Shown: positions 47,814 through 58,386 of the stretch, in pieces
Position numbering within the stretch: position 1 is the first letter of the stretch
How the letters are laid out: every line of letters begins with the position of its first letter
Source of the DNA: Pseudovibrio axinellae
GTDB taxonomy: Bacteria > Pseudomonadota > Alphaproteobacteria > Rhizobiales > Stappiaceae
Direction of reading: 5' to 3'
DNA: 64,000 nucleotides
Assembly: GCF_900110875.1 (NCBI RefSeq)
Contig: NZ_FOFM01000011.1
Span: 1-64,000, forward strand
Notes under the pieces: generated by a model
Seen by the model: the letters and a program-made list of their open reading frames with translations, nothing else
What the model was told of the DNA's origin: nothing
Databases searched by the model: none
Made by a program: the position numbers and the translations under genes

Positions 47814-50180
47814 TCAGGCAATGTATTTGTTAAGTACCTCTAGAGCAGCGAGTTTTCGAGAGATCCCGCCATCGAGCCATCCAGCAGCAGCTCCAATGAC
47901 ACTTTGAGAAGAATAGCAGCGCAAGCAAGTTGCAGCCCCAGAAATAAGGACACCATTTTCCATTTGAGCTGCTTCAAATATGTCATCTAAAGCGCCCGTA
48001 TCGACCTGAGCGCTTACAAGCTCCAAAGCTGTTACGCGCAAACGTCTGCGCGGGCTCTGCAAATAACCGCGCACATCGATATCGACTCCAGGTCTGTCTG
48101 AAAGAACCTTCAAAGCAGATGCAGCAACGGCGTCAGTCCTATCTTTCAGGCTGGCTTCTACAAACGCAGCCGCCTTGGGGTTGGTGGAATGCCCCAGCAA
48201 CTGAACACGCATTGCACGCACAGCAACGTCGTTTTCCGGTGGCAACGCAAGAATCTGCTCAACAGCCTCTTCAGAGAGCAGGACCCCGTTACCAGCCAAG
48301 TGAACAAGGCTTTGGCTAGCTGCAAAACGAACCTGCATTTTACGGTCTGCCAATGCAATTACCAATGCATCGATCAGCTCACGACGTTTCGCATCTCCGC
48401 AAATGCGCAAAGCCAGCAGGCGAATATCCAACGCCGGGTCGTCTGGACGGCCCGGAACGACGCGCTTTTTCTCGATTGTCTCGTTCGCAAGCTCAAGAAA
48501 ATGCATGTCTTTCTTACCAAGCTCAACCGGCTCTTCCGCCAATTTCTCCAGCTCGTCGTCCGTGTTTAGAATTGAACCAAGGGTAGAGCCAGGGAACGCA
48601 ACAACATTTTCAGGAAGGTCTTCAGCGCTTTCAATCGCCCCTTCAGGCACGTTGTCAGGCACACCTTCAGAAACCAAATCGGCAGCACCGGATGTCACTT
48701 TGGCAACGAGATCTTTCGCCGCAACAGCTTCATCTGCAAGCTCCTCCTCGTCAGCCGCCGCAGGCTCAATCACATTGCCTTCACGGTCGATCTGAATACG
48801 AGGCTTCTTGCGCTCACCCTTCCCGTTAATGCCAAGTTCAGAAGGATCTTTCTCTTTCGCGCTATCTAAAATGTCTTGCTCATGCGCTTCAGGCAGGAGT
48901 TTGCCGCAAGCAGCCCATACAAGTTGCACCGCCGCATTGTCAGCGAAATCTCCTTCGCCCTCTGCAAGCTTGGCAAGAGAGTTTAAAGCAGCAAGCCGAA
49001 TTTCCTGAACTGCACTTGTCACCTGCTCTTGAAGGACACCAAAGCCTTCAGTACTTGGCACTTTTCCATGAAGCACTATGAATGCTTTAAGCACCGCCTC
49101 TTCTTTACGATGCGCAAAAATCTCTGCCAGCATCGTCGCAGCTTCCTCACCTTCCAACCTGGCAATAACCGGTATCAAGGCAGCAACAAACACCTCACTT
49201 GCACCACGCAGGGAGCATTCGATACGCTCTTTCAGGGCGTCAGGCTTGGCAATATCACAGTCAGCCAGCTGCTCCAGCGCCATGACACGCAAGGTCTCTT
49301 CGTCATCTTCGAAAGCAACTTTCTCAAGCTTGGCGTAGGAGAGGTTTCCCGGCGCTTTAAGGGCCAGCCGGCGCATTTGCGGCTCACTATCAGCCAGAAG
49401 CACAGCAAGGTCAGCTTCATCACCGCGTGCCATCATCACTTCAGCCGCGGCCACACGCACATCTGGATCAGCATCAGCGAATAAAACCTGAAGGATCTCA
49501 CTCACGCGCTCATCTTGTGCTGTCGAAAGCGCACGCGCCGTATGTTCACGAACACGAGCTGAAGAATCTGTCGCTAGCACTGCCAGTTCGAGCAGACCAG
49601 CAACTCCCATGTCGGAGAGCGCCATCGTCACTTCTGGCCAGATTTCCTGACCAAATGGATCGCGCGCAGCCTCTAGTAACGTAGGGGCAGATCCGTCACA
49701 TTTCAGCGTCCCAAGTGCCAAGATCGATTTACGCTGAACATCCAGCCAATCATCCCACTCAGCTCCATAGCCGTCCCAAGCTACGTCTTCTTCGCAACGT
49801 TCTTTAGCAAGCTTTGTTAGCCACTCTTCCGCAACTGGACCGCCAACAATCGCAAGCCCTTCAATGGCTGCAAGCTTGACCTCAAGAACTGGATCATTTT
49901 GCAAGCTCCAAAGCAGGACTTCAGCATCCAACCCTGTTCCTGCCGAAATAAGAGCGGCGATCACATCGCTACGGACGTCCTCATCCTCATCGCGCAGTGC
50001 ATCAGCAAGCGCGCTGTGTGCAGCAGAACCACCAAACTTTCCAAGCACCTGAGCGGAAAAACATTTTTCACGCTCCTCACCATTCGCAAGCAACTCACAC
50101 AGGATTTTTACAAGTTTTTCGGTCGCTTCTGTTTGCTCAATAGCAAAACCTTGATCCATACGGATGGTTGAAACCGTCAT
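47814..50180 (-). CDS. HEAT-repeat protein encoded downstream of idrA
   Basis: This 788-residue protein consists mainly of HEAT-type helical repeats (for example HSALADALRDEDEDVRSDVIAALI, and SARVREHTARALSTAQDERV). Roughly residues 20-450 form one array, then an acidic, low-complexity linker (about 455-555, DEEELADEAVAAKDL) leads to a second array (about 580-788). There is no signal peptide and no membrane segment, so it is cytoplasmic. It has no cysteines arranged for a cofactor. It is the last gene of the operon after the putative iodate reductase subunits, about 108 bases after idrA, and is followed by a terminator. A scaffold or maturation chaperone for the molybdenum enzyme is the best guess; no function is shown. 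Confidence 0.75.
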   Translation of the reverse strand: MTVSTIRMDQGFAIEQTEATEKLVKILCELLANGEEREKCFSAQVLGKFGGSAAHSALADALRDEDEDVRSDVIAALISAGTGLDAEVLLWSLQNDPVLEVKLAAIEGLAIVGGPVAEEWLTKLAKERCEEDVAWDGYGAEWDDWLDVQRKSILALGTLKCDGSAPTLLEAARDPFGQEIWPEVTMALSDMGVAGLLELAVLATDSSARVREHTARALSTAQDERVSEILQVLFADADPDVRVAAAEVMMARGDEADLAVLLADSEPQMRRLALKAPGNLSYAKLEKVAFEDDEETLRVMALEQLADCDIAKPDALKERIECSLRGASEVFVAALIPVIARLEGEEAATMLAEIFAHRKEEAVLKAFIVLHGKVPSTEGFGVLQEQVTSAVQEIRLAALNSLAKLAEGEGDFADNAAVQLVWAACGKLLPEAHEQDILDSAKEKDPSELGINGKGERKKPRIQIDREGNVIEPAAADEEELADEAVAAKDLVAKVTSGAADLVSEGVPDNVPEGAIESAEDLPENVVAFPGSTLGSILNTDDELEKLAEEPVELGKKDMHFLELANETIEKKRVVPGRPDDPALDIRLLALRICGDAKRRELIDALVIALADRKMQVRFAASQSLVHLAGNGVLLSEEAVEQILALPPENDVAVRAMRVQLLGHSTNPKAAAFVEASLKDRTDAVAASALKVLSDRPGVDIDVRGYLQSPRRRLRVTALELVSAQVDTGALDDIFEAAQMENGVLISGAATCLRCYSSQSVIGAAAGWLDGGISRKLAALEVLNKYIA

Positions 50181-50288
50181 GACTGGCTCTTCTCCTCAAG
50201 TCCACTTCTGCAAAAGGGAACACATTCGCCTACCCCTTTGCACAAACGGAAAAGAACTGGCGGGAAGTCCCCGCCAGCTCCAGTTGTT

Positions 50289-52964
50289 TTATGCAATATC
50301 GCGTCGTGCGAAAGACATAGAACGGAAGCTATCCTTGTATGGGGATGTGCCGATCTTTTTGATCCGGCCAACGCCCATCTTGTAGTTGTAGTTTCCGCTG
50401 ATCCAGTCGACTACACGGCCAGAAAGCGCATTGGCTGGCTGGGCTGTGTGCAGGAAGTCCATGTAAAGCATGCCCTTTTTCAGCGCTGGGGTAACAATTG
50501 CTACCGCAGTAATTGCGCCTTCGGTCAGTTCAATATGGCCTTCATCCATCAACTTGGTAAAGGTGAAGTCATCGCCTTCAACGCCAACTGTGGTGTCTGT
50601 CTGAACCGGAATACGGTCAGAGTAGAGCATCACGTAGTCACCGTTTTCGATGCCACGCTCGGCAGCATCCTCTGGGTGGAGTTCTACCCAGTTTTCAGGC
50701 CAGCGCTGTACGATGTAAGGACGACGACGGTCATCATAACCAGACTGCCAACGCTCGTTAATACGACCGGAGGTAATCCAAAGCTCGTCTTCTTTCGGCT
50801 TCATCCATGCCCAGTAATCGGAGAACAGGCTCCAAGGGCTTTTCTGGATGTTACACTTACCCGTTTGGGAGTTGAAGTGAGTGAGCTTCTTGTTGAAGCG
50901 GTTTGCTCCAGCAGGTCCGGTTTCTGGCAGCTCACGAGTGGTGTCATGCAGGCGCTTGGTACCCTGAAGGGTGCCATCTTCCAACATAACCACCGGACCC
51001 TGAATGCCGTCAGTTCCAAATTCTGCAAATTTCTCGTGAAGAGTCTTGCCTTCTTTCTGCGCAGCAACCTTCAGCATAAAGAAGTCTTTACGGCTGCCAC
51101 GGGAGAAGCGGGCTGCTTCTTCAAGGACTTGGTTGGAGTCTTTCCAATCGTACCCTTTGAAGCCCATTTTCTTCGCAAGATTTGCAACAATCCACCAGTC
51201 TGGCTTAGCTTCGCCCGGTGCATCGTAGAATTTTGGATACAGACGCAGACGACGCTCACCGTTTGCACGGGTGAAGTTTTCTTCGCCCCAACCAGAAGCT
51301 GGGAAGACGATGTCTGCAAAGCGTGCACCAATCGGATCTACAAGGTAGATGTCCTGGTTCACGACAACCATGCCGCCACTATCAACACGTGCTTTCAGTG
51401 TGTCGATAATTGTCTGCTTGTCGTAGGAACGGATCTGATGCGGATTTTGCACAGTCAGTTCTTCAAATTTTGCAGACAAAGACTGGGAGCCACACATGGA
51501 CTGAATCCAGGTGTTACCAATCACGTGCGCAAAGCGGGTGTGGCCGCTCATGAGATATCGGTCAGTATCCATCGCACGACGACGACGACCCGGAAGCTTC
51601 TCAGGAGACTTGTTGCGTGGGTAAGAACCACCCTTCAAGCCACCACGCTGGTGACCACCTGCACGGCCAATAACCTGACCTGGGCGACCGCCACAACCGG
51701 TGATAATACCAAGAGAAGAAATCGCATTGGTGTTACCGGTGTTGTTGGACCAGTAGAAGCCTTTCTCGATCATGATGGATGTCTTAGGACGGGAGCCATC
51801 ATCACGAGGTTTTGCCATCCACTCAGCAGCCTTGTAGATCTTCTCTACATCAATTTGAGCAGTTTCAGCAGCCGCTGTTGGTTCGAACTCATCCTGAGCC
51901 ATCAGCCACTTGACGAAGTCATCGTAGCCATTGGTCTGGAATTTGCCCCAAGTGGTACGCCACTGCCAAGGAGTGTTACGAGTACCCTGACCGAAGCCTG
52001 AAGAGCTTTCCCACTTATTGTTAACCCAGTCGCGGATCCATTCAGCATCCTGCCAACCGTTTTCGATGATCACACGAGCAATCGCATTCACAACGAGAAG
52101 GTCAGTACCTGGCTGGATATCAAGCCACAAACCACCATTCTTCTCCGCATAAGCCACACCCGCAGTACGGCGTGGGATCATGAAGATAGCCTTCTGACCG
52201 TTCTGAATGGCTGGCATAATCCAGTCAGTGAACAAAATGGTCTTGGACTCGTAAGGGTCAGTGCCACAGATCAGCAGTGTCTCTGCATCTTTCCAATCCT
52301 GATAGGATGGGCCGAAGTTATCGAAACCTGCATCACGGAAGCCTGGGGTGGACGTCACATCAGACGGAGTGTCATGGAATGTGAAGTTCGCAGTACCAAC
52401 AGAGCGCAGCGCGTACTTGGAGATTGCGTAGGTGTTCTCCATGTAGCCGTAGGAGAATGTTTTCACGCAAAAAGCGTTCTCACCGTGCTTCTTGATAGTG
52501 TGCTTACCAACTTCCGCAGCAACTTCCAGAGCCAGATCCCAGGTGACCGGCATCAAAGTGCCGAACATGCGGATCATTGGTGACTTCAAACGATCGCGAG
52601 TTGGTGTCTGAGGGTTGTAAACCTTCTTCGCCAGCGCACCACCACGGATGGAGGAGTTACCGTTGACGTTGACGTGCTTGGTGTCCTTATCAGGAATGAT
52701 AATGACGTGGTGTGGTTCGCCCTTATGCAGTACAATATTGTACTGGTTAGGAGCAACCCACGGACCAAGCGGATCAACCGGGAAGTCTGCACCAAAGGCA
52801 TTTTCAGCAGCCATCTGGCCACCTACTTTGCCGCCTTTAACAGGCCAGCGGTAGATTTTGTAACCACATGCAACGATGCAGTAATCGCAAGCGGTGGTCA
52901 AAACATCAGCATCTACCGGTGGCAGCGGGATGTTTGTATCGGGAATATAGTAGGGAGTTGACAT
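50289..52964 (-). CDS. idrA: Molybdopterin subunit of putative iodate reductase (arsenite-oxidase family)
   Basis: This 891-residue catalytic subunit belongs to the DMSO-reductase superfamily, close to AioA. Cys26, Cys29 and Cys33 (CDYCIVACGY) with a serine rather than cysteine in NSSIRGG near 105 form a 3Fe-4S site as in AioA. The conserved GRAGGHQRGG keeps the Arg and His of the AioA active site, but the arsenite-binding Glu region (N-S-E-C-H in AioA as I recall it) reads TSTPGF, so arsenite is an unlikely substrate. Two diheme peroxidases and a Rieske subunit are encoded with it, the signature of IdrABP1P2 iodate reductase. It has no signal peptide and would be exported folded together with IdrB by the Tat route. 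AGGAGGGG precedes the ATG. Confidence 0.83.
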   Translation of the reverse strand: MSTPYYIPDTNIPLPPVDADVLTTACDYCIVACGYKIYRWPVKGGKVGGQMAAENAFGADFPVDPLGPWVAPNQYNIVLHKGEPHHVIIIPDKDTKHVNVNGNSSIRGGALAKKVYNPQTPTRDRLKSPMIRMFGTLMPVTWDLALEVAAEVGKHTIKKHGENAFCVKTFSYGYMENTYAISKYALRSVGTANFTFHDTPSDVTSTPGFRDAGFDNFGPSYQDWKDAETLLICGTDPYESKTILFTDWIMPAIQNGQKAIFMIPRRTAGVAYAEKNGGLWLDIQPGTDLLVVNAIARVIIENGWQDAEWIRDWVNNKWESSSGFGQGTRNTPWQWRTTWGKFQTNGYDDFVKWLMAQDEFEPTAAAETAQIDVEKIYKAAEWMAKPRDDGSRPKTSIMIEKGFYWSNNTGNTNAISSLGIITGCGGRPGQVIGRAGGHQRGGLKGGSYPRNKSPEKLPGRRRRAMDTDRYLMSGHTRFAHVIGNTWIQSMCGSQSLSAKFEELTVQNPHQIRSYDKQTIIDTLKARVDSGGMVVVNQDIYLVDPIGARFADIVFPASGWGEENFTRANGERRLRLYPKFYDAPGEAKPDWWIVANLAKKMGFKGYDWKDSNQVLEEAARFSRGSRKDFFMLKVAAQKEGKTLHEKFAEFGTDGIQGPVVMLEDGTLQGTKRLHDTTRELPETGPAGANRFNKKLTHFNSQTGKCNIQKSPWSLFSDYWAWMKPKEDELWITSGRINERWQSGYDDRRRPYIVQRWPENWVELHPEDAAERGIENGDYVMLYSDRIPVQTDTTVGVEGDDFTFTKLMDEGHIELTEGAITAVAIVTPALKKGMLYMDFLHTAQPANALSGRVVDWISGNYNYKMGVGRIKKIGTSPYKDSFRSMSFARRDIA

Positions 52965-52978
52965 GGTATTTCCCCTCC

Positions 52979-53575
52979 TCAGCCCTTGAGATTGTCATAG
53001 CGGCCATAGATCAGCCCGAACATGCCAACGGCGTAAACATCATCGCCATCAACTTCGAGAAGGACCTGTGGCAGACTCTGGTAAGCCTGACCGGAAATGA
53101 AGATACCGTGACGGGTCAGATCAAATGTGGTCAAATGCAATGGGCATGGGCCCAGCGCCTTGTCACCTTTTTGATAAGTACCCTGCAACGGGCCACCCTG
53201 GTGCGTACAAGTGTAGTTGAACGCTACAATGTCCTTTTCCGCACCAATGCCACCACCAGCTTCTTTACCCAGCTTCACGATCATGGATTCAGCGTAAGCG
53301 CCTTCATCCGGGTATGTGAAATCGAGTGGCTCATCTTCTTTCAAATCGGAAAGCTTACAGATGAACTTGCGCTCATACGTGGAGACCATAGCCGGCACCT
53401 TCGCAGAGGAAGGCCCAGACTTAAGGGCTACCATAACCGTGAAGGTAGAAATACCGGAAGTCAGCAGGAACTGACGGCGTGTCATTACACAACGCTTACC
53501 AGTCTTCGCAATTTCCTCAGGGCCGTTCACGACCTCGATCATCTCAGGAGAGACGGACTTAGGTTGATGTGTCAT
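52979..53575 (-). CDS. idrB: Rieske subunit of putative iodate reductase
   Basis: This 198-residue subunit carries a Tat signal (TRRQFLLTSG, twin Arg at 33-34), followed by a hydrophobic stretch and a Rieske domain. The 2Fe-2S ligands are Cys123 and His125 (CTHQGG) and Cys144 and His147 (CPLH). The extra cysteine pair that forms a disulphide in cytochrome bc1 Rieske proteins is absent. The ATG at 53575 has AGGAGG well spaced before it; an upstream GTG is less likely. It passes electrons between periplasmic cytochromes and IdrA and brings IdrA through the Tat system. It lies 12 bases after idrP1 and 14 before idrA. Confidence 0.87.
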   Translation of the reverse strand: MTHQPKSVSPEMIEVVNGPEEIAKTGKRCVMTRRQFLLTSGISTFTVMVALKSGPSSAKVPAMVSTYERKFICKLSDLKEDEPLDFTYPDEGAYAESMIVKLGKEAGGGIGAEKDIVAFNYTCTHQGGPLQGTYQKGDKALGPCPLHLTTFDLTRHGIFISGQAYQSLPQVLLEVDGDDVYAVGMFGLIYGRYDNLKG

Positions 53576-53587
53576 CTCCACCTCCTC

Positions 53588-54733
53588 TTAGTTCGTTACA
53601 GCCGGAAGCGGTGCATATTCAGGAAGCTCAGGAGTTTCCATCAAAAGCCGCTCACCAGTGAAACTCTCAACAAACGCAACCAGATCAGCTTTCTCTTTCT
53701 TGGACAGGCCGAGAGGCTTAAGCAGCTTCGTTTTGTTTTTTGAGAACTCGTTGGTACCACCACCCTGGTTGTAGAATTCTACGACGTCTTCCAGAGTTTC
53801 CAACATGCCATTATGCATGTAAGGAGCTGTGTACTTGGTGTAGCGCAGAGAAGGCACCCGGAATTTACCCAAATCAGCCTTTTCCTTCGTTACAAAGTAA
53901 AGACCCGGATCATCTTTCCATTTCCGGTATTTTTCTTCCGTAGAGCCTTTTGCAAGAAGCTCAAAGCGGAAGGTGATCTGCGCTAATTCGTCAGTTTCCC
54001 AACCATCATAACCAGGAACGCCCAGATTGTAGTATTTCTGGTCAGTCACAAGCGCACCGTTATGGCAGGTAGAACATTCCGCCTTACCGGTGAACAGCTC
54101 CATGCCGCGCTTCTGCTGTTTGGTCAGAGCTTTGTCATCACCAAGCATGTACTTGTCGAATGGAGTGTCTCTCTGCACGAGGGAACGCTCAAACGCAGCA
54201 ATCGCCATGTAAGCATCGCGGATGCTCGGGTATTCGGTTCCAAACACCTCGTTAAAGCGCTTACGATACTCAGGAATGAACGCCAAACGCGCTTCCATCA
54301 TGTCGTCTTCACCATTACCGGCGACACCACCACGAGCAGCTGTACGAGCCTCAGCTTCCAAAGATTTGGAAACACCGGTCCAGAAGTAGTTGCCGTAATA
54401 AGCAGTGTTTACGATAGTTGGCGAGTTACGCCAGTGTGTTGTTCCCGGGTAGCCCAGAGAAATCTTGTCTGGGAAATCCCAGCCAAGCTCAGGTAGATGA
54501 CATGCTGAACACGGCATCGCACTGTTACCGGACAGGCGCGGATCAAAGAACAACAGCTTACCCAACTCAACCTTTTCAGGAGTTGTTGGATTATCTGGTG
54601 GAGCAGGTGGTTCACCCAAAGGAGCAAGTTCAGTTGGACGTTTCTCGGCCGCTTGAACACCAGCCGCAACTGCAACAATGGAAACACCAGCAAGTGCAAT
54701 CGCACCAATGGTTTTTTTGAATGTTGTCATCAT
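53588..54733 (-). CDS. idrP1: Diheme cytochrome c peroxidase/MauG-like protein, first copy
   Basis: This 381-residue protein has a Sec signal (about residues 1-29) and two heme c motifs, CSACH at 75-79 and CSTCH at 220-224. The family motifs LGKLLFFDPRLSGN and RYTKYTAPYMHNGMLETLEDVVEFYNQGG (in pieces) are present. Such proteins reduce hydrogen peroxide in the periplasm. In iodate reductase clusters two of them are thought to remove the peroxide or reactive iodine species made during iodate reduction. It follows idrP2 by nine bases. Which copy matches P1 or P2 of described clusters is not decided here. Confidence 0.85.
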   Translation of the reverse strand: MMTTFKKTIGAIALAGVSIVAVAAGVQAAEKRPTELAPLGEPPAPPDNPTTPEKVELGKLLFFDPRLSGNSAMPCSACHLPELGWDFPDKISLGYPGTTHWRNSPTIVNTAYYGNYFWTGVSKSLEAEARTAARGGVAGNGEDDMMEARLAFIPEYRKRFNEVFGTEYPSIRDAYMAIAAFERSLVQRDTPFDKYMLGDDKALTKQQKRGMELFTGKAECSTCHNGALVTDQKYYNLGVPGYDGWETDELAQITFRFELLAKGSTEEKYRKWKDDPGLYFVTKEKADLGKFRVPSLRYTKYTAPYMHNGMLETLEDVVEFYNQGGGTNEFSKNKTKLLKPLGLSKKEKADLVAFVESFTGERLLMETPELPEYAPLPAVTN

Positions 54734-54742
54734 AGCAGCCCC

Positions 54743-55816
54743 CTAGTTATGCTTGTTTTTCCAGTCTTCGATCAACTCATAAGAGTAATCGTCGGCTGTC
54801 CAAACGTATTCAGGAGTGTCGAAGCTGTTGCCAGACAATGACTTCAGGAATGCAACCAAATTGGCTTTTTCGTTGTCTTTAAGGCGCAATGGCTTAAGAC
54901 GCGCATCTTTGTTGACATCATCACCACCGCCCTGATTGTAAAATTCTACAACTTCTTCAAGGGAGGCCAGCATGCCGTTATGCATGTAAGGCGCGGTGTA
55001 GGTCAGCTCACGAAGAGAAGGGGTCATAAAGGAACGCTTGTTCTCTTCTTTATGATCCAGAATGTATGCGCCCTGATCTTCACGAAGGTTCATGTAGTTG
55101 TTAACGCCCATGAATTTCGCGTAGGTCACATAAGTGATGTGACGCATCGGGTCAGACCAGATATCAGGGTTGTTTGGAACACCGATATTGTGTGGCTGAT
55201 CGTCTGTGAAGCGATTGCCAGAGTGACAGGAAGAACACCCTGCTTTGCCTTTGAAGAGCTCATAACCGCGCTTCTCAGCAAGAGAGAGCTTACCCTCATC
55301 GAAAGCAGAGCCTGTCGACGTAATCGACTTCAAAAATGCTTCTAAAGCACCGCGTGCGCCACCATTAGACGGCTCGCCCTTGCCCGCAGCTTTAAACATT
55401 TCAACGTAGACAGGGTCCTGTTTCAGGCGCTCCTGCATCACGCGCATATCCATGTTCATGATGTATGTCTCTGTGATCATTCCACGAGACACATCATTCA
55501 GGTTTGTACCCAAACGACTATCATGCATCCAGGCTGCCCGGTGTCCGACGTTCGCCAATGTTGGCGTGTTACGGAAACCCTCTGAACCAGTATATGCAGT
55601 AGAAAGCTTTTCGCCATCCGTGAAGCCCTTTGCAGGGTCATGACACGTCGAACAGCTAAAGTTCGTATCACCAGACAAACGGCTATCATAAAATAAGCGT
55701 TTTCCTAGTTCTACTAGAGCAGGATTCTGCTCTATTTTTGCAACAGGCCCTAAATCTGTTGCGAATGCCGCAGTGCTTGTCATTAAAGCAATCGACATAC
55801 CGACGAGAAGGCGCAT
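54743..55816 (-). CDS. idrP2: Diheme cytochrome c peroxidase/MauG-like protein, second copy
   Basis: This 357-residue protein is the first gene of the operon. The ATG at 55816 is preferred over a frame start 48 bases upstream because GGGGGT lies before it and it starts a clean Sec signal (MRLLVGMSIALMTSTAAFA). Heme c motifs are CSTCH at 55-59 and CSSCH at 194-198. It shares the fold and the APYMHNGML region with its neighbour but is clearly diverged, so the duplication is old. FNR boxes upstream suggest induction at low oxygen. Confidence 0.85.
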   Translation of the reverse strand: MRLLVGMSIALMTSTAAFATDLGPVAKIEQNPALVELGKRLFYDSRLSGDTNFSCSTCHDPAKGFTDGEKLSTAYTGSEGFRNTPTLANVGHRAAWMHDSRLGTNLNDVSRGMITETYIMNMDMRVMQERLKQDPVYVEMFKAAGKGEPSNGGARGALEAFLKSITSTGSAFDEGKLSLAEKRGYELFKGKAGCSSCHSGNRFTDDQPHNIGVPNNPDIWSDPMRHITYVTYAKFMGVNNYMNLREDQGAYILDHKEENKRSFMTPSLRELTYTAPYMHNGMLASLEEVVEFYNQGGGDDVNKDARLKPLRLKDNEKANLVAFLKSLSGNSFDTPEYVWTADDYSYELIEDWKNKHN

Positions 55817-55919: not shown

Positions 55920-55933
55920 TTGATTGCAATCAC
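55920..55933. promoter_or_regulatory. Near-perfect FNR box upstream of the idr operon
   Basis: TTGATTGCAATCAC matches the FNR/ANR consensus TTGAT-N4-ATCAA at nine of ten defined bases. It lies about 104 bases upstream of the idrP2 ATG, in the range for activation of the minus-strand operon. Confidence 0.75.
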
Positions 55934-56018: not shown

Positions 56019-56032
56019 TTGATTTATATCAA
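56019..56032. promoter_or_regulatory. Perfect FNR box between idr operon and regulator gene
   Basis: TTGATTTATATCAA is an exact TTGAT-N4-ATCAA palindrome, about 58 bases before the Crp/Fnr gene start and about 200 from idrP2. A further half-site, TTGATTAAAACTAA, lies at 55994-56007. It probably serves autoregulation and/or cooperates in idr control. Confidence 0.85.
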
Positions 56033-56089: not shown

Positions 56090-56857
56090 ATGACGGGGAC
56101 AACCCCTCCAAAGATAGTGTCACCGGCTGACAATCTTTCTTTTGAATGCGCTCAGGAATCCTGTGGCTTCCGGGGAGATGAATGCATATGTCGCCCGATG
56201 CACAATCATTTCGACAAAGCCCAGTTACGCGCCGCAAGAACTCTTGAGTTAAACGAGGGTGACCAGCTTGCTCCTGAGGACTTTCCAGAGCCTGTCGTAT
56301 TTGCAGTTTTAACTGGTGTCATCGCCGTTGAAAGCCATCTGAGTGACGGGCGTCGTTCCCTGCTTACGCTCCGACTGCCCGGCGAATACCTCGACATGAA
56401 TAGGGCGGACCGGCACGCTTCAGGCGAAGTGGTCGCCTTGGCCCCAACGTCAGTCAAGCTACTTCCGCGAACTGTGTTTGAAGAACTCCTGCTGCTGGAC
56501 GCAAACCTACGCCGAATCTATTGGCGCAGGGCAACCGATATTATGCACCAGCAGTTTGACCATTCCTCAGACTTGGGCAAGAAAACACCAACAGAGCGAA
56601 TGGCCTCCTTTATCTTTGAGCTTAGAAATCGCCTGAACATTCCTCGTTTTGTAGAAGAATTCGCCCTTCCGATTTCCAGACAGTCCATCGCAGACTACCT
56701 TGGGCTGCGCGCGGAAACCGTGAGTCGGGTGTTTAAGGGGCTGGAAAAAGAAGGCCTTATCAAGCTTGTCAGTAAACACCAACTGGCAATCATCGATTTT
56801 AAAGGCCTGCGAAAGATCGCCAACGGCTCTCGCCCGCGCCTTTCCAACCATCGCTGA
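56090..56857 (+). CDS. Crp/Fnr family regulator with unusual N-terminal cysteines
   Basis: This 255-residue regulator has a cyclic-nucleotide-binding-like sensor domain and a C-terminal HTH with ISRQSIADYLGLRAETVSRVF. The E-x-x-S-R recognition signature matches proteins that bind TTGAT half-sites, which is what the adjacent DNA contains. All four cysteines are in the first 35 residues: Cys20, Cys25, Cys32 and Cys34 (C-X4-C-X6-C-X-C). Classical FNR uses three N-terminal cysteines plus one in the middle of the protein; none exists later here. An oxygen-sensing 4Fe-4S cluster held entirely by the N-terminus is possible but unproven. Divergent from the idr operon. Confidence 0.88.
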   Translation: MTGTTPPKIVSPADNLSFECAQESCGFRGDECICRPMHNHFDKAQLRAARTLELNEGDQLAPEDFPEPVVFAVLTGVIAVESHLSDGRRSLLTLRLPGEYLDMNRADRHASGEVVALAPTSVKLLPRTVFEELLLLDANLRRIYWRRATDIMHQQFDHSSDLGKKTPTERMASFIFELRNRLNIPRFVEEFALPISRQSIADYLGLRAETVSRVFKGLEKEGLIKLVSKHQLAIIDFKGLRKIANGSRPRLSNHR

Positions 56858-56915: not shown

Positions 56916-58064
56916 CTAACCGACTAACTCTTCAACGCCGACCAGCTCAAACGAGCCGATAGGGGTTTCAACCCCATTCAGCAGCACTGCGAGGTGGTGT
57001 TCCCCCTCATAATACCGGCGTGTAGTTATTGACCTGATGCGGTGTTGTCCTGAAACACTTAGCTTTTGACCGGCATTCAAGTTTCCACGCTTCCACTTAA
57101 ACACCTTGGGTGCGAGCTTTCCGTTCGCTTTGCGATGGTACACGACAAAGTCCAGCATGAACGGAACAGCTTTCTCAGACAGGTTTTCAACCACGGCCGA
57201 AAATAACAGCGCAGACCCAAATTCTAAGCGAGCTGTCTCCAACTCCCCATGCACAACCCTCACATGCTCACCCTCGTAACCCAGAACAGCAAGGCTGGGC
57301 AGGTGCGCTGCTTTCACATTGCTGCGCAGCGCATGTCGCACGAGGCGCTCTCTTTGCTTTGTAGGGTGTGCAAGCCACTTGCCACAAACCTGCGCCGCGA
57401 TATCAGCGTGGTCCTTGGAGATATCATTAAGGTGATTAGCAACAGAGCGGCGGACATACTCGGTTTCATCATCCTTAAGCTTCTCCAAAAGAGGTAAACA
57501 CTTTTCTGGTGCCTCCATGAAGCCCTTAAGTTGCGGAGCCCAAGGCAATCTTGGCCGTGTTCCCTCAGAAACAAGCCGGCGCACATACGCACACTCGTCC
57601 TCAGCCCACTCATTCAAAAGCGCAAGTGTTTCTCGCTCATACCGCTCAATAAAAGGCCGGATCGCAAACTCAGCCGAGAACCTGCTTGTCAGCTCTTTCA
57701 TGGCCGCCATCGAAAGCTCAAACTGCTCCAAACCATAGAGCAACACATAATCTGTAAATGGCATGGTAATGAGGCCCGCAAGCCCACTGTTTTCTGTTCG
57801 GCGTTCTGGCTCATCATGAACGGGCGTCGGCTCAGCAAGTGTAACCACCATCACCTGCAGGGCGTCCTCATAGTTTTCAGGGAGAAATCGCCGCAAGCAC
57901 CGTGCAATATGGAATGATCGCTCCTTGAGCTCCATGGCCGCCAGCCCAGCCACCGCCTCACGAAAAAAACCAGCACCGTCGAACGCAGGATAAGCCCGTG
58001 CCAAAGCACGAGCCATCCCATCAATCGAAGCGCGATTAAAAACCTCTTTAAAAGGCTCAGCCAT
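56916..58064 (-). CDS. alkC: AlkC-type DNA glycosylase
   Basis: This 382-residue DNA repair enzyme has HEAT-like helical repeats (YVRRLVSEGTRPRLPW, TEYVRRSVANHLNDIS). A C-terminal Ig-like domain (about residues 280-382, ARLEFGSALLFSAVVENLS to EHHLAVLLNG) is the arrangement of the AlkC branch that removes N3-methylcytosine and related lesions. The ATG at 58064 (MAEPFKEVFN) is the family start; the frame runs upstream without a ribosome binding site. It overlaps the end of a small partner gene by eight bases, so the two are coupled. Confidence 0.87.
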   Translation of the reverse strand: MAEPFKEVFNRASIDGMARALARAYPAFDGAGFFREAVAGLAAMELKERSFHIARCLRRFLPENYEDALQVMVVTLAEPTPVHDEPERRTENSGLAGLITMPFTDYVLLYGLEQFELSMAAMKELTSRFSAEFAIRPFIERYERETLALLNEWAEDECAYVRRLVSEGTRPRLPWAPQLKGFMEAPEKCLPLLEKLKDDETEYVRRSVANHLNDISKDHADIAAQVCGKWLAHPTKQRERLVRHALRSNVKAAHLPSLAVLGYEGEHVRVVHGELETARLEFGSALLFSAVVENLSEKAVPFMLDFVVYHRKANGKLAPKVFKWKRGNLNAGQKLSVSGQHRIRSITTRRYYEGEHHLAVLLNGVETPIGSFELVGVEELVG

Positions 58065-58386
58065 ACGTTCCCACCACGCTAAAGAACTCCATTGCACCTG
58101 CTTTACGTGGAGCATGTTCCTTCGAGACATCCAGAAGAGAGAAATACGCCTGGCCAGCTGCGTGTTTGCCAGCTGCTGCGACAGCTGCTTTGCTGGCAGC
58201 ACCAGTTGCCCATGTCACAATATCTGCATAAGCCCCATCTTCGTGCTTCACCAAACTACGTCGCACGAAGCCATCAAACTCCTCCAGAAACTCTTTCTGA
58301 AACCGTTCGGAGGCTTCTAAAAGCTCACTCTCACTCCTGTCAGGCGAAAGGTGAAACGGTGCAATTTCAATAACTTGGTCGGTCAT
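58057..58386 (-). CDS. Small dimeric alpha/beta-barrel-like protein
   Basis: This 109-residue protein has a pattern like the ABM/dimeric alpha-beta barrel fold: VIEIAPFHL, a helix FQKEFLEEFDGFVRRSL, then YADIVTWATGAASKAAVAAAGK. It is not close enough to name an enzyme. It overlaps alkC by eight bases and is divergent from a WYL regulator across a palindromic operator, so the three genes form one unit. Confidence 0.7.
   Translation of the reverse strand: MTDQVIEIAPFHLSPDRSESELLEASERFQKEFLEEFDGFVRRSLVKHEDGAYADIVTWATGAASKAAVAAAGKHAAGQAYFSLLDVSKEHAPRKAGAMEFFSVVGTYG

Follow-up and report, generated by a model that had tools for sequence, protein, structure and literature searches.

A putative marine-type iodate reductase operon in Pseudovibrio, with a co-occurring HEAT-repeat gene and a divergent Crp/FNR regulator

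The first 64 kb of contig NZ_FOFM01000011.1 of Pseudovibrio axinellae (the whole stretch of DNA analysed, hereafter the window) carries a tight operon, idrP2-idrP1-idrB-idrA, on the reverse strand at 50289-55816. Judging from the sequence, this locus very likely encodes a periplasmic iodate reductase of the marine type that works under low oxygen: iodate reduction is predicted from the genes, and the operon adds a member to the established Idr system, a family membership that we regard as sound. Idr was reportedly first described in a study from 2020. An earlier note on this DNA had placed the four genes here, and all were found at 50289-55816 on the reverse strand, its outer limit of 55816 being the conserved ATG of idrP2. 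Outside that note lie a co-directional HEAT-repeat gene downstream, a divergent Crp/FNR gene upstream and FNR boxes in between.

The operon opens with idrP2 (54743..55816, reverse strand) and idrP1 (53588..54733, reverse strand), encoding two dihaem proteins of the CCP/MauG family, followed by idrB (52979..53581, reverse strand) for a Rieske [2Fe-2S] subunit targeted to the twin-arginine translocation (Tat) pathway and idrA (50289..52964, reverse strand) for the catalytic Mo-bisPGD/[3Fe-4S] subunit of 891 amino acids, which has no evident signal peptide. The intergenic gaps are 9 nt (idrP2-idrP1), 6 nt (idrP1-idrB) and 14 nt (idrB-idrA). The mechanical reading frame of idrP2 opens at TTG 55864, and the ATG at 55816 is kept in all 11 Pseudovibrio upstream regions that were aligned, that of the window among them; the frame of idrB opens at GTG 53581, and the ATG at 53575, sitting behind GGAGG, is the likelier start. 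IdrA matched the Molybdopterin domain (4.5e-38) and, N-terminally, Rieske_3 (4.4e-32); IdrB matched Rieske (2.2e-06) and TIGR02694 (7e-33); and both dihaem proteins matched CCP_MauG (4e-42 for IdrP1, 9e-38 for IdrP2), all well beyond chance. IdrB bears a Tat motif (TRRQFL in the window) and a CxHx18CxxH Rieske motif, and both kinds of motif are present in 94/94 IdrB sequences; IdrP1 and IdrP2, about 38% identical to each other, have two CxxCH motifs each (at residues 75 and 220 in IdrP1) and N termini that look hydrophobic by eye and are candidate Sec signal sequences. The domains, the Tat motif and the difference between the dihaem proteins agree with the earlier description of an AioA-family subunit, a Tat-dependent Rieske protein and two different dihaem proteins encoded together. 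Further, the following features listed in PMC10149662 are present: the IdrA [3Fe-4S] motif CX2CX3CX70S, CXHX18CX2H with a Tat signal in IdrB, and two CX2CH motifs in each IdrP.

Related loci (given L numbers here) comprised the best 80 of 567 confirmed relatives, to which three Idr and five AioA loci from plasmids and four AioA loci from relatives were added. All four genes stand in the order P2-P1-B-A in 72 of the 80; in the other eight the contig breaks off no more than 1.8 kb upstream of idrA. The presence of moaA was also counted as support. Counts from the IdrA alignment, which omits duplicates (L001, L003, L010, L021), other Mo enzymes (L022-L028) and rows below 85% of the length, are not independent, because several near-identical Pseudovibrio rows were kept.

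In a quickly built tree of 62 rows (52 IdrA-like and nine AioA sequences hand-picked from 105 aligned rows, plus one NapA), one branch with an SH-aLRT support of 100 splits the IdrA clade from AioA; the program's long-branch warnings concerned NapA, the Thermus AioA and the Azonexus/Thiothrix IdrA where they meet AioA. The earlier note had held that a position inside the AioA clade would speak against iodate reductase, and the tree places IdrA outside it. Within the active site, His197, Arg434, His438 and Lys401 are invariant in 96/96 IdrA rows and aligned with residues invariant in the nine AioA. The position that is Glu in 9/9 AioA is Ser in 91, Ala in three and Asp in two of the 96 IdrA (Ser205 in the window), so that the substitution at the arsenite-binding Glu region seen in the earlier note holds throughout; we take it from the AioA structure that a His, this Glu, an Arg and a His line the arsenite site. 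The Asn of the AioA HNR motif is Asp in 96/96 IdrA and its Arg is Thr in 94/96, the loop reading HNRPAYNSE in AioA vs HDTPSDVTS in the window. No match to IdrP1 or IdrP2 was found in the nine AioA loci (flanks of 3-4 kb in five and just 1.5 kb in four, L017-L020), which bears out the earlier statement that the peroxidases set Idr apart. On clade, active-site loop and synteny, an identity as arsenite oxidase was rejected. A second candidate, Ser201 of IdrA as Mo ligand, was dropped, as it is Ala in 6/96 IdrA and Ser in 1/9 AioA; IdrA is described as having no amino acid ligand (PMC10100899), which also counts against Ser201.

The two dihaem proteins depart from canonical peroxidases. At the position of Met275 in CcpA (1eb7), counted on the printed alignment and taken here to be a haem ligand, Tyr occupies 76/76 IdrP1 (Tyr321 in the window) and 73/74 IdrP2 (Tyr309, numbered from the TTG), or 149/150 together; both proteins thus lack the Met ligand of the six-coordinate haem that marks a canonical CcpA. 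Their best solved relative is 6e1c, a "di-heme enzyme" that we take to be MbnH and that also has Tyr at this position, followed by CcpA peroxidases, and their nearest NCBIfam models, both below cut-off, are named MbnH and MauG. The His71 position of CcpA is likewise Tyr (76/76 IdrP1, 74/74 IdrP2), and the position of Glu114, which we presume to be the acid-base residue of CcpA just as we take the role of His71 as known, is Ala in 63/76 IdrP1 (Ala138 in the window) and Ser in 13/76. Aligned to 6e1c, Glu132 of IdrP2 (73/74, Asp in one) meets a Glu. From the Tyr at the ligand position and the missing Glu in IdrP1 we infer MauG-like haem chemistry, with predicted Tyr-His ligation in both proteins; IdrP1, which seems to have lost the acid-base Glu, may be non-peroxidatic and mainly an electron carrier, and Glu132 is a candidate acid-base residue of IdrP2. 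Canonical bacterial cytochrome c peroxidases are Met-His ligated, and MauG and BthA are Tyr-His ligated at the six-coordinate haem (PMC6405878).

A further gene accompanies the operon. Located 108 bp downstream of idrA and co-directional with it, the gene at 47814..50180 (reverse strand) encodes a HEAT-repeat protein of 788 amino acids with no signal peptide evident by eye. With a profile grown from this protein in three rounds on the same loci, a homologue was found beside idr in 59/80 loci; it is downstream and co-directional in all 47 of L029-L075, and in several Gammaproteobacteria it lies mostly divergent, upstream of idrP2. The profile finds one such open reading frame per locus, save for two halves in Labrenzia sp. 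DG1229 (L031, 10769-13143), where the gene is split over two frames; in the near relative L032 it is a single frame. The family has signatures of its own, WDDWxDxQ-like in 51 of 62 frames and STLxAI-like in 45 of 62 (some frames being truncated). Among 16 Pseudovibrio genomes, the HEAT gene occurs in exactly 13/13 with idr, covering both idr lineages of the genus, and in 0/3 without it (G001, G007, G011). In an even set of 385 genomes from the class, 11 of them with IdrA, HEAT homologues (E up to 1e-15) occur in 13 and both proteins in 10 (Fisher p 1.8e-16), that is, in 10/11 genomes with IdrA vs 3/374 without. Three of those ten (G000, G061, G395) had themselves contributed rows to the profile; when four of the genomes are left out (6/7), the Fisher p is still 1.4e-10. 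The two genes are adjacent in 8/10 genomes, lying on different contigs in G341 and 13.5 kb apart in G347; in the sole IdrA genome without HEAT (G119) the IdrA is a fragment at a contig end, and the HEAT proteins without IdrA score 165 bits (G256) and 66 and 80 bits (G343 and G408). Thus, the HEAT companion gene travels with idr in most relatives examined. We did not find it described before: among the idr papers listed in literature searches, none was found to mention a HEAT protein, and the neighborhood figure of PMC8692401 might show the gene unnamed.

What this protein does is less certain. Its AlphaFold model (mean pLDDT 80.1) has two solenoids joined by a mostly disordered linker that holds the STLxAI motif, and the 50 listed of 1267 fold-search matches are mostly large eukaryotic solenoids with a few designed repeat proteins, at a query-side TM-score of at most 0.37; such generic solenoids indicate no function. 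Its cytosolic location, its co-occurrence with idr and the lack of another chaperone (no TorD/NarJ-type chaperone was found among the neighboring window genes scanned) lead us to suggest, tentatively and with low certainty, that it helps to mature or escort IdrA in the cytosol ahead of export by Tat. The opposing idea, that it is a passenger or a regulator (a scaffold for a signalling protein), we rate at only slightly below even. HEAT solenoids are general scaffolds, and the fold matches are in keeping with that. A terminator-like hairpin, found by consensus scan between idrA and the HEAT gene (50253..50281, reverse strand; 13 pairs, then a T-rich tail), argues for separate or reduced transcription. 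Eight of the 80 loci lack the HEAT gene although their sequence runs for 7 kb or more upstream of idrA and 4 kb or more downstream (L079, L088, L091, L092, L097, L102, L103, L104), so that the gene is not obligatory; the other 13 of the 21 loci without it have less than 3 kb on at least one side. None was found within 6 kb at the Azonexus locus, nor at the five AioA loci with 3-4 kb flanks, and the Vibrio proteins (L093, L098, L111) match weakly and have no WDDWxDxQ motif. That the gene goes with idr in both the genus and the class, accompanying two idr lineages within Pseudovibrio, and that its position is altered in most HEAT-bearing Gammaproteobacteria nevertheless make a mere passenger unlikely; the protein may yet be a regulator.

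Upstream, and divergent from idrP2, a gene at 56090..56857 (forward strand) encodes a Crp/FNR-family regulator of 255 amino acids with N-terminal Cys 20, 25, 32 and 34 and ETVSR in its recognition helix. The region between contains FNR box 1 (56019..56032, reverse strand), which reads TTGATATAAATCAA towards idrP2 and is the sole perfect FNR box in the window, and 99 bp from it an FNR-like box 2 with one mismatch (55920..55933, reverse strand; GTGATTGCAATCAA). The Crp helix-turn-helix with its E-x2-S-R helix is matched by a TTGATN4ATCAA site as putative target, a pairing that presumably follows the recognition-helix rule. The nearest PDB relative is FixK2, the NCBIfam FixK and FnrL models score under their cut-offs, and the spacing C-x4-C-x6-C-x-C of the Cys, which might hold an oxygen-labile Fe-S cluster, differs from what we take to be that of E. 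coli FNR. In Labrenzia, Roseibium, Pelagibius and Denitrobaculum, too, a homologue is encoded divergently from idrP2; those of the last two have no such Cys. In Pseudovibrio the regulator is found in 11/13 genomes with idr and 0/3 without; in G012 an OmpR-type regulator and in G010 a transposase and a KAP-like gene take its place (names assigned by eye).

The boxes are more frequent than chance. In the window and nine close relatives, box 1 is perfect in 9/10 and box 2 has one mismatch in 10/10; of the other genomes compared, G013 has two one-mismatch boxes and G012 a single one, G010 has no box, and in G395 there are two, both perfect. Of 69 loci (counting the window) with 400 bp upstream of idrP2, 10 show a perfect box and 25 a box with at most one mismatch, vs means of 0.07 and 1.5 (maxima 1 and 4) in 60 shuffles, and the remainder of these loci (1.10 million positions) holds four perfect boxes and 65 with one mismatch or none. 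Because the loci are related, these counts are not independent. Promoter and terminator scans were not richer than shuffles (9 vs 6.8; 9 vs 11.1), and of their hits we draw on the hairpin behind idrA alone, as a point of caution. Together, the Crp/FNR regulator and its putative boxes give idr a distinct regulatory version. Other clades have other genes in this place. Tritonibacter and Oricola have PAS histidine kinases that include a receiver domain, and nine more loci gave strong matches to them. The Azonexus and Thiothrix loci have a sigma-54 regulator with an "ATP-binding protein", to which the atoSC pair of DN11 is comparable (PMC10149662).

It is also conceivable, though we think it the lesser chance by some distance, that the divergent regulator serves other genes and that a general FnrL or FixK switches idr via the same boxes. 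Perfect boxes lie upstream of idr at loci where no regulator homologue was found (e.g., L062, L077, L091, L102), and two homologues (L036, L066) have no N-terminal Cys. At the class level, the regulator matched in 6/385 genomes, four of which (92-100 bits) have no IdrA, so it is not exclusive to idr. Within the genus, by contrast, all 11 matches stand beside idr, divergent from idrP2, and there are no others, which favors the divergent regulator as the switch of the operon.

Several observations weigh against a marine-type iodate reductase under FNR control with a HEAT companion, or against parts of it. To the hairpin, the well-flanked loci without a HEAT gene and the weak Vibrio matches must be added the 44/69 loci with no FNR box at one mismatch and Ile135 of IdrP2, which takes the Glu114 position when the protein is aligned to CcpA 1eb7. 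The plasmid loci whose accessory genes resemble those of the clade of proven reducers (Azonexus, Thiothrix) encode IdrA about 51% identical to that of the window, have a different loop (HDKC...D) and show no HEAT gene (Thiothrix being cut upstream). The proven IdrA proteins of Pseudomonas sp. SCT, IR-12, DN11 and Roseovarius azorensis were not among the sequences in the tree and the comparisons. An AlphaFold model of IdrA, built with seven near rows, was unusable (pLDDT 34.9), and none of 52 matching solved structures has Idr in its name. The NCBIfam arsenite oxidase models accept both subunits (TIGR02693, 420 bits vs a cut-off of 359 for IdrA; TIGR02694, 113 vs 96 for IdrB). These models do not separate IdrA and IdrB from AioAB, which would account for the label "arsenate reductase (azurin)" on the idr genes of Azonexus. 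Literature searches for iodate with Pseudovibrio found no activity data, and those for Pseudovibrio with arsenite oxidase found nothing.

An Idr-family oxyanion reductase with another main substrate (bromate, chlorate, selenate or similar) seems improbable to us: marine-branch IdrA is about half identical to the Azonexus/Thiothrix branch, where the loop differs, and no substrate test for this branch was found in the literature consulted, yet iodate is reduced by cultured marine members, and idrA of R. azorensis is induced at 0.1 uM iodate (PMC11445184). That the locus encodes arsenite oxidase AioAB with two peroxidases adjacent by chance we consider very unlikely, for although both TIGR models exceed their cut-offs and the best solved relatives of IdrA are AioA, the separate clade, the exchanged loop, the peroxidases in 72/80 IdrA loci with no match in nine AioA loci, and a Pfam scan of 20 window genes outside the operon that found no arsenic gene all argue against it.

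The host assembly measures 5.13 Mb in 93 contigs. Pseudovibrio species are facultatively anaerobic and are commonly isolated from sponges, corals and ascidians. A napA gene (L147 12869-15373, contig C47; NCBIfam 1598 bits) lies about 24 kb from idrA on the idr contig, so the host has a periplasmic nitrate reductase. The earlier supposition of a marine aerobe is therefore only half right, holding for the sea and not fully for aerobic life. Within the genus, idr is present in 13/16 genomes; the IdrA of G004 is 96% identical to that of the window, which clusters with Labrenzia/Roseibium and G013 (support 98), and those of G010 and G012 cluster with Cohaesibacter and Ruegeria (support 100). These two groupings are most simply explained if Pseudovibrio acquired idr at least twice. 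Three idr loci are on replicons listed as plasmids: Vibrio pTHAF190c_a (L111), Azonexus NCP973 (L112) and Thiothrix DNT52 (L113). Adjoining the regulator in the window is a DNA-alkylation-repair-like gene (56916-58202); seven of eight matching relatives have one or two in-frame stops in it, and the eighth match is partial. At the Pelagibius idr locus (L036 1913-4189), a CHASE2/adenylate cyclase gene adjoins the Crp/FNR regulator.

In the proposed mechanism, IdrB would be exported by Tat and carry the signal-less IdrA along. Electrons would pass from the quinol pool via cytochrome c to the Rieske center of IdrB, the [3Fe-4S] cluster of IdrA and the Mo site, where iodate would be reduced to hypoiodous acid, ending as iodide. 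This path and the chemistry follow published models (PMC8692401). IdrP1 and IdrP2, as Tyr-ligated (MauG/MbnH-like) dihaem proteins, would dispose of H2O2 or reactive iodine, with IdrP1, which seems to have lost the acid-base Glu, perhaps mainly carrying electrons and IdrP2 offering a candidate for that Glu. The divergent Crp/FNR protein would bind the two boxes and turn the operon on at low oxygen, and the HEAT protein would be a fifth component, maturing or escorting IdrA before export. Many uncultured marine Alpha- and Gammaproteobacteria have, no more than 8 kb from idr, a CydA-like gene (21 loci), a cytochrome c (20) and a tri-haem c with EB_dh (25 of 80, by tblastn), e.g., L045 10877-16519, L046 67-4882, L068 2485-4764, L097 1284-3695 and L104 2040-4445; they are not in the window. 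With domains scanned in a few examples, this set is a candidate for a dedicated quinol-to-IdrAB electron module.

A bolder joint reading, which we offer as doubtful, would make the locus a five-gene island. The HEAT protein (provisionally IdrH) would be a dedicated cytosolic HEAT-solenoid molybdoenzyme chaperone that matures or proofreads IdrA via its WDDW surface and disordered STLxAI linker; IdrP1 and IdrP2 would be a MauG-like pair, one catalytic and one electron-carrying, acting on hypoiodous acid or H2O2 via high-valent haem; and the regulatory versions would be exchangeable, of the FNR type here. With the HEAT gene counted in, the known four-gene Idr system would become one of five genes in many marine bacteria. 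In any event, the HEAT companion and the putatively Tyr-ligated dihaem pair are concrete targets for the accessory steps of the Idr enzyme system, and in Pseudovibrio there would be an iodate reducer that lives with hosts and can be cultured. The iodide of the sea surface is fed by the reduction of iodate, and by reacting with ozone this iodide forms a main ozone sink (PMC11445184). It has been suggested that iodate reducers live where oxygen still blocks fnr-dependent expression of nitrate reductase (PMC8692401); FNR control of idr itself would complicate that suggestion, and with FNR boxes upstream of idr in 25/69 loci the oxygen threshold can be tested.

Compared with known systems, AioAB (NT-26, Thermus HB8 and others) shares the fold family, the Rieske small subunit and the Cys of the [3Fe-4S] motif with the window proteins but has no peroxidases, has Glu in its active-site loop and has other neighboring genes. 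IdrP1 and IdrP2 match the families of MauG, MbnH, BthA and CcpA and, at the position of the six-coordinate haem ligand, have Tyr as MauG and BthA do (PMC6405878), although IdrP1 differs in missing the aligned Glu; the likeness is at the level of family and does not imply orthology. The HEAT protein shares its solenoid with E-Z type HEAT proteins (CpcE/F, NblB) and the designed alphaReps, and matches NblB/CpcE at 37 vs a cut-off of 300 bits, but has its own WDDWxDxQ and STLxAI signatures, the latter in a disordered linker, and is tied to idr.

Among iodate reducers, Pseudomonas sp. SCT, Denitromonas sp. IR-12, Azoarcus sp. DN11 and Aromatoleum TC-10 have the same four genes, with the peroxidases ahead of idrAB (PMC8801600), and the same cofactor, Tat and haem motifs (PMC10149662). 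Genes often found in their clade are those for a two-component system (lacking in 2 of 10 genomes), cytochrome c551 (lacking in 5) and moaA (lacking in 5; PMC8801600); the window, compared by description, has a Crp/FNR regulator and a HEAT protein instead. Likely iodate reducers were inferred in PMC8692401 from the same gene set and synteny as the window's, and its 145 genomes may include Pseudovibrio. Closest in kind are the marine aerobic Alphaproteobacteria Roseovarius azorensis, Notoacmeibacter marinus and Aliiroseovarius sediminilitoris, of the same class and with the same gene set, all three of which reduce iodate (PMC11445184); the introduction, results and discussion of PMC11445184 mention neither a HEAT protein nor a regulator. 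An Aliiroseovarius locus in our set (L042), from the genus of one of these three, encodes an IdrA 80% identical to that of the window and has the HEAT gene adjoining. These idr-bearing marine relatives reduce iodate under static growth and do not grow anaerobically, and in R. azorensis idr is induced by iodate and by static growth, a low-oxygen induction that, compared by description, fits the FNR boxes of the window (PMC11445184).

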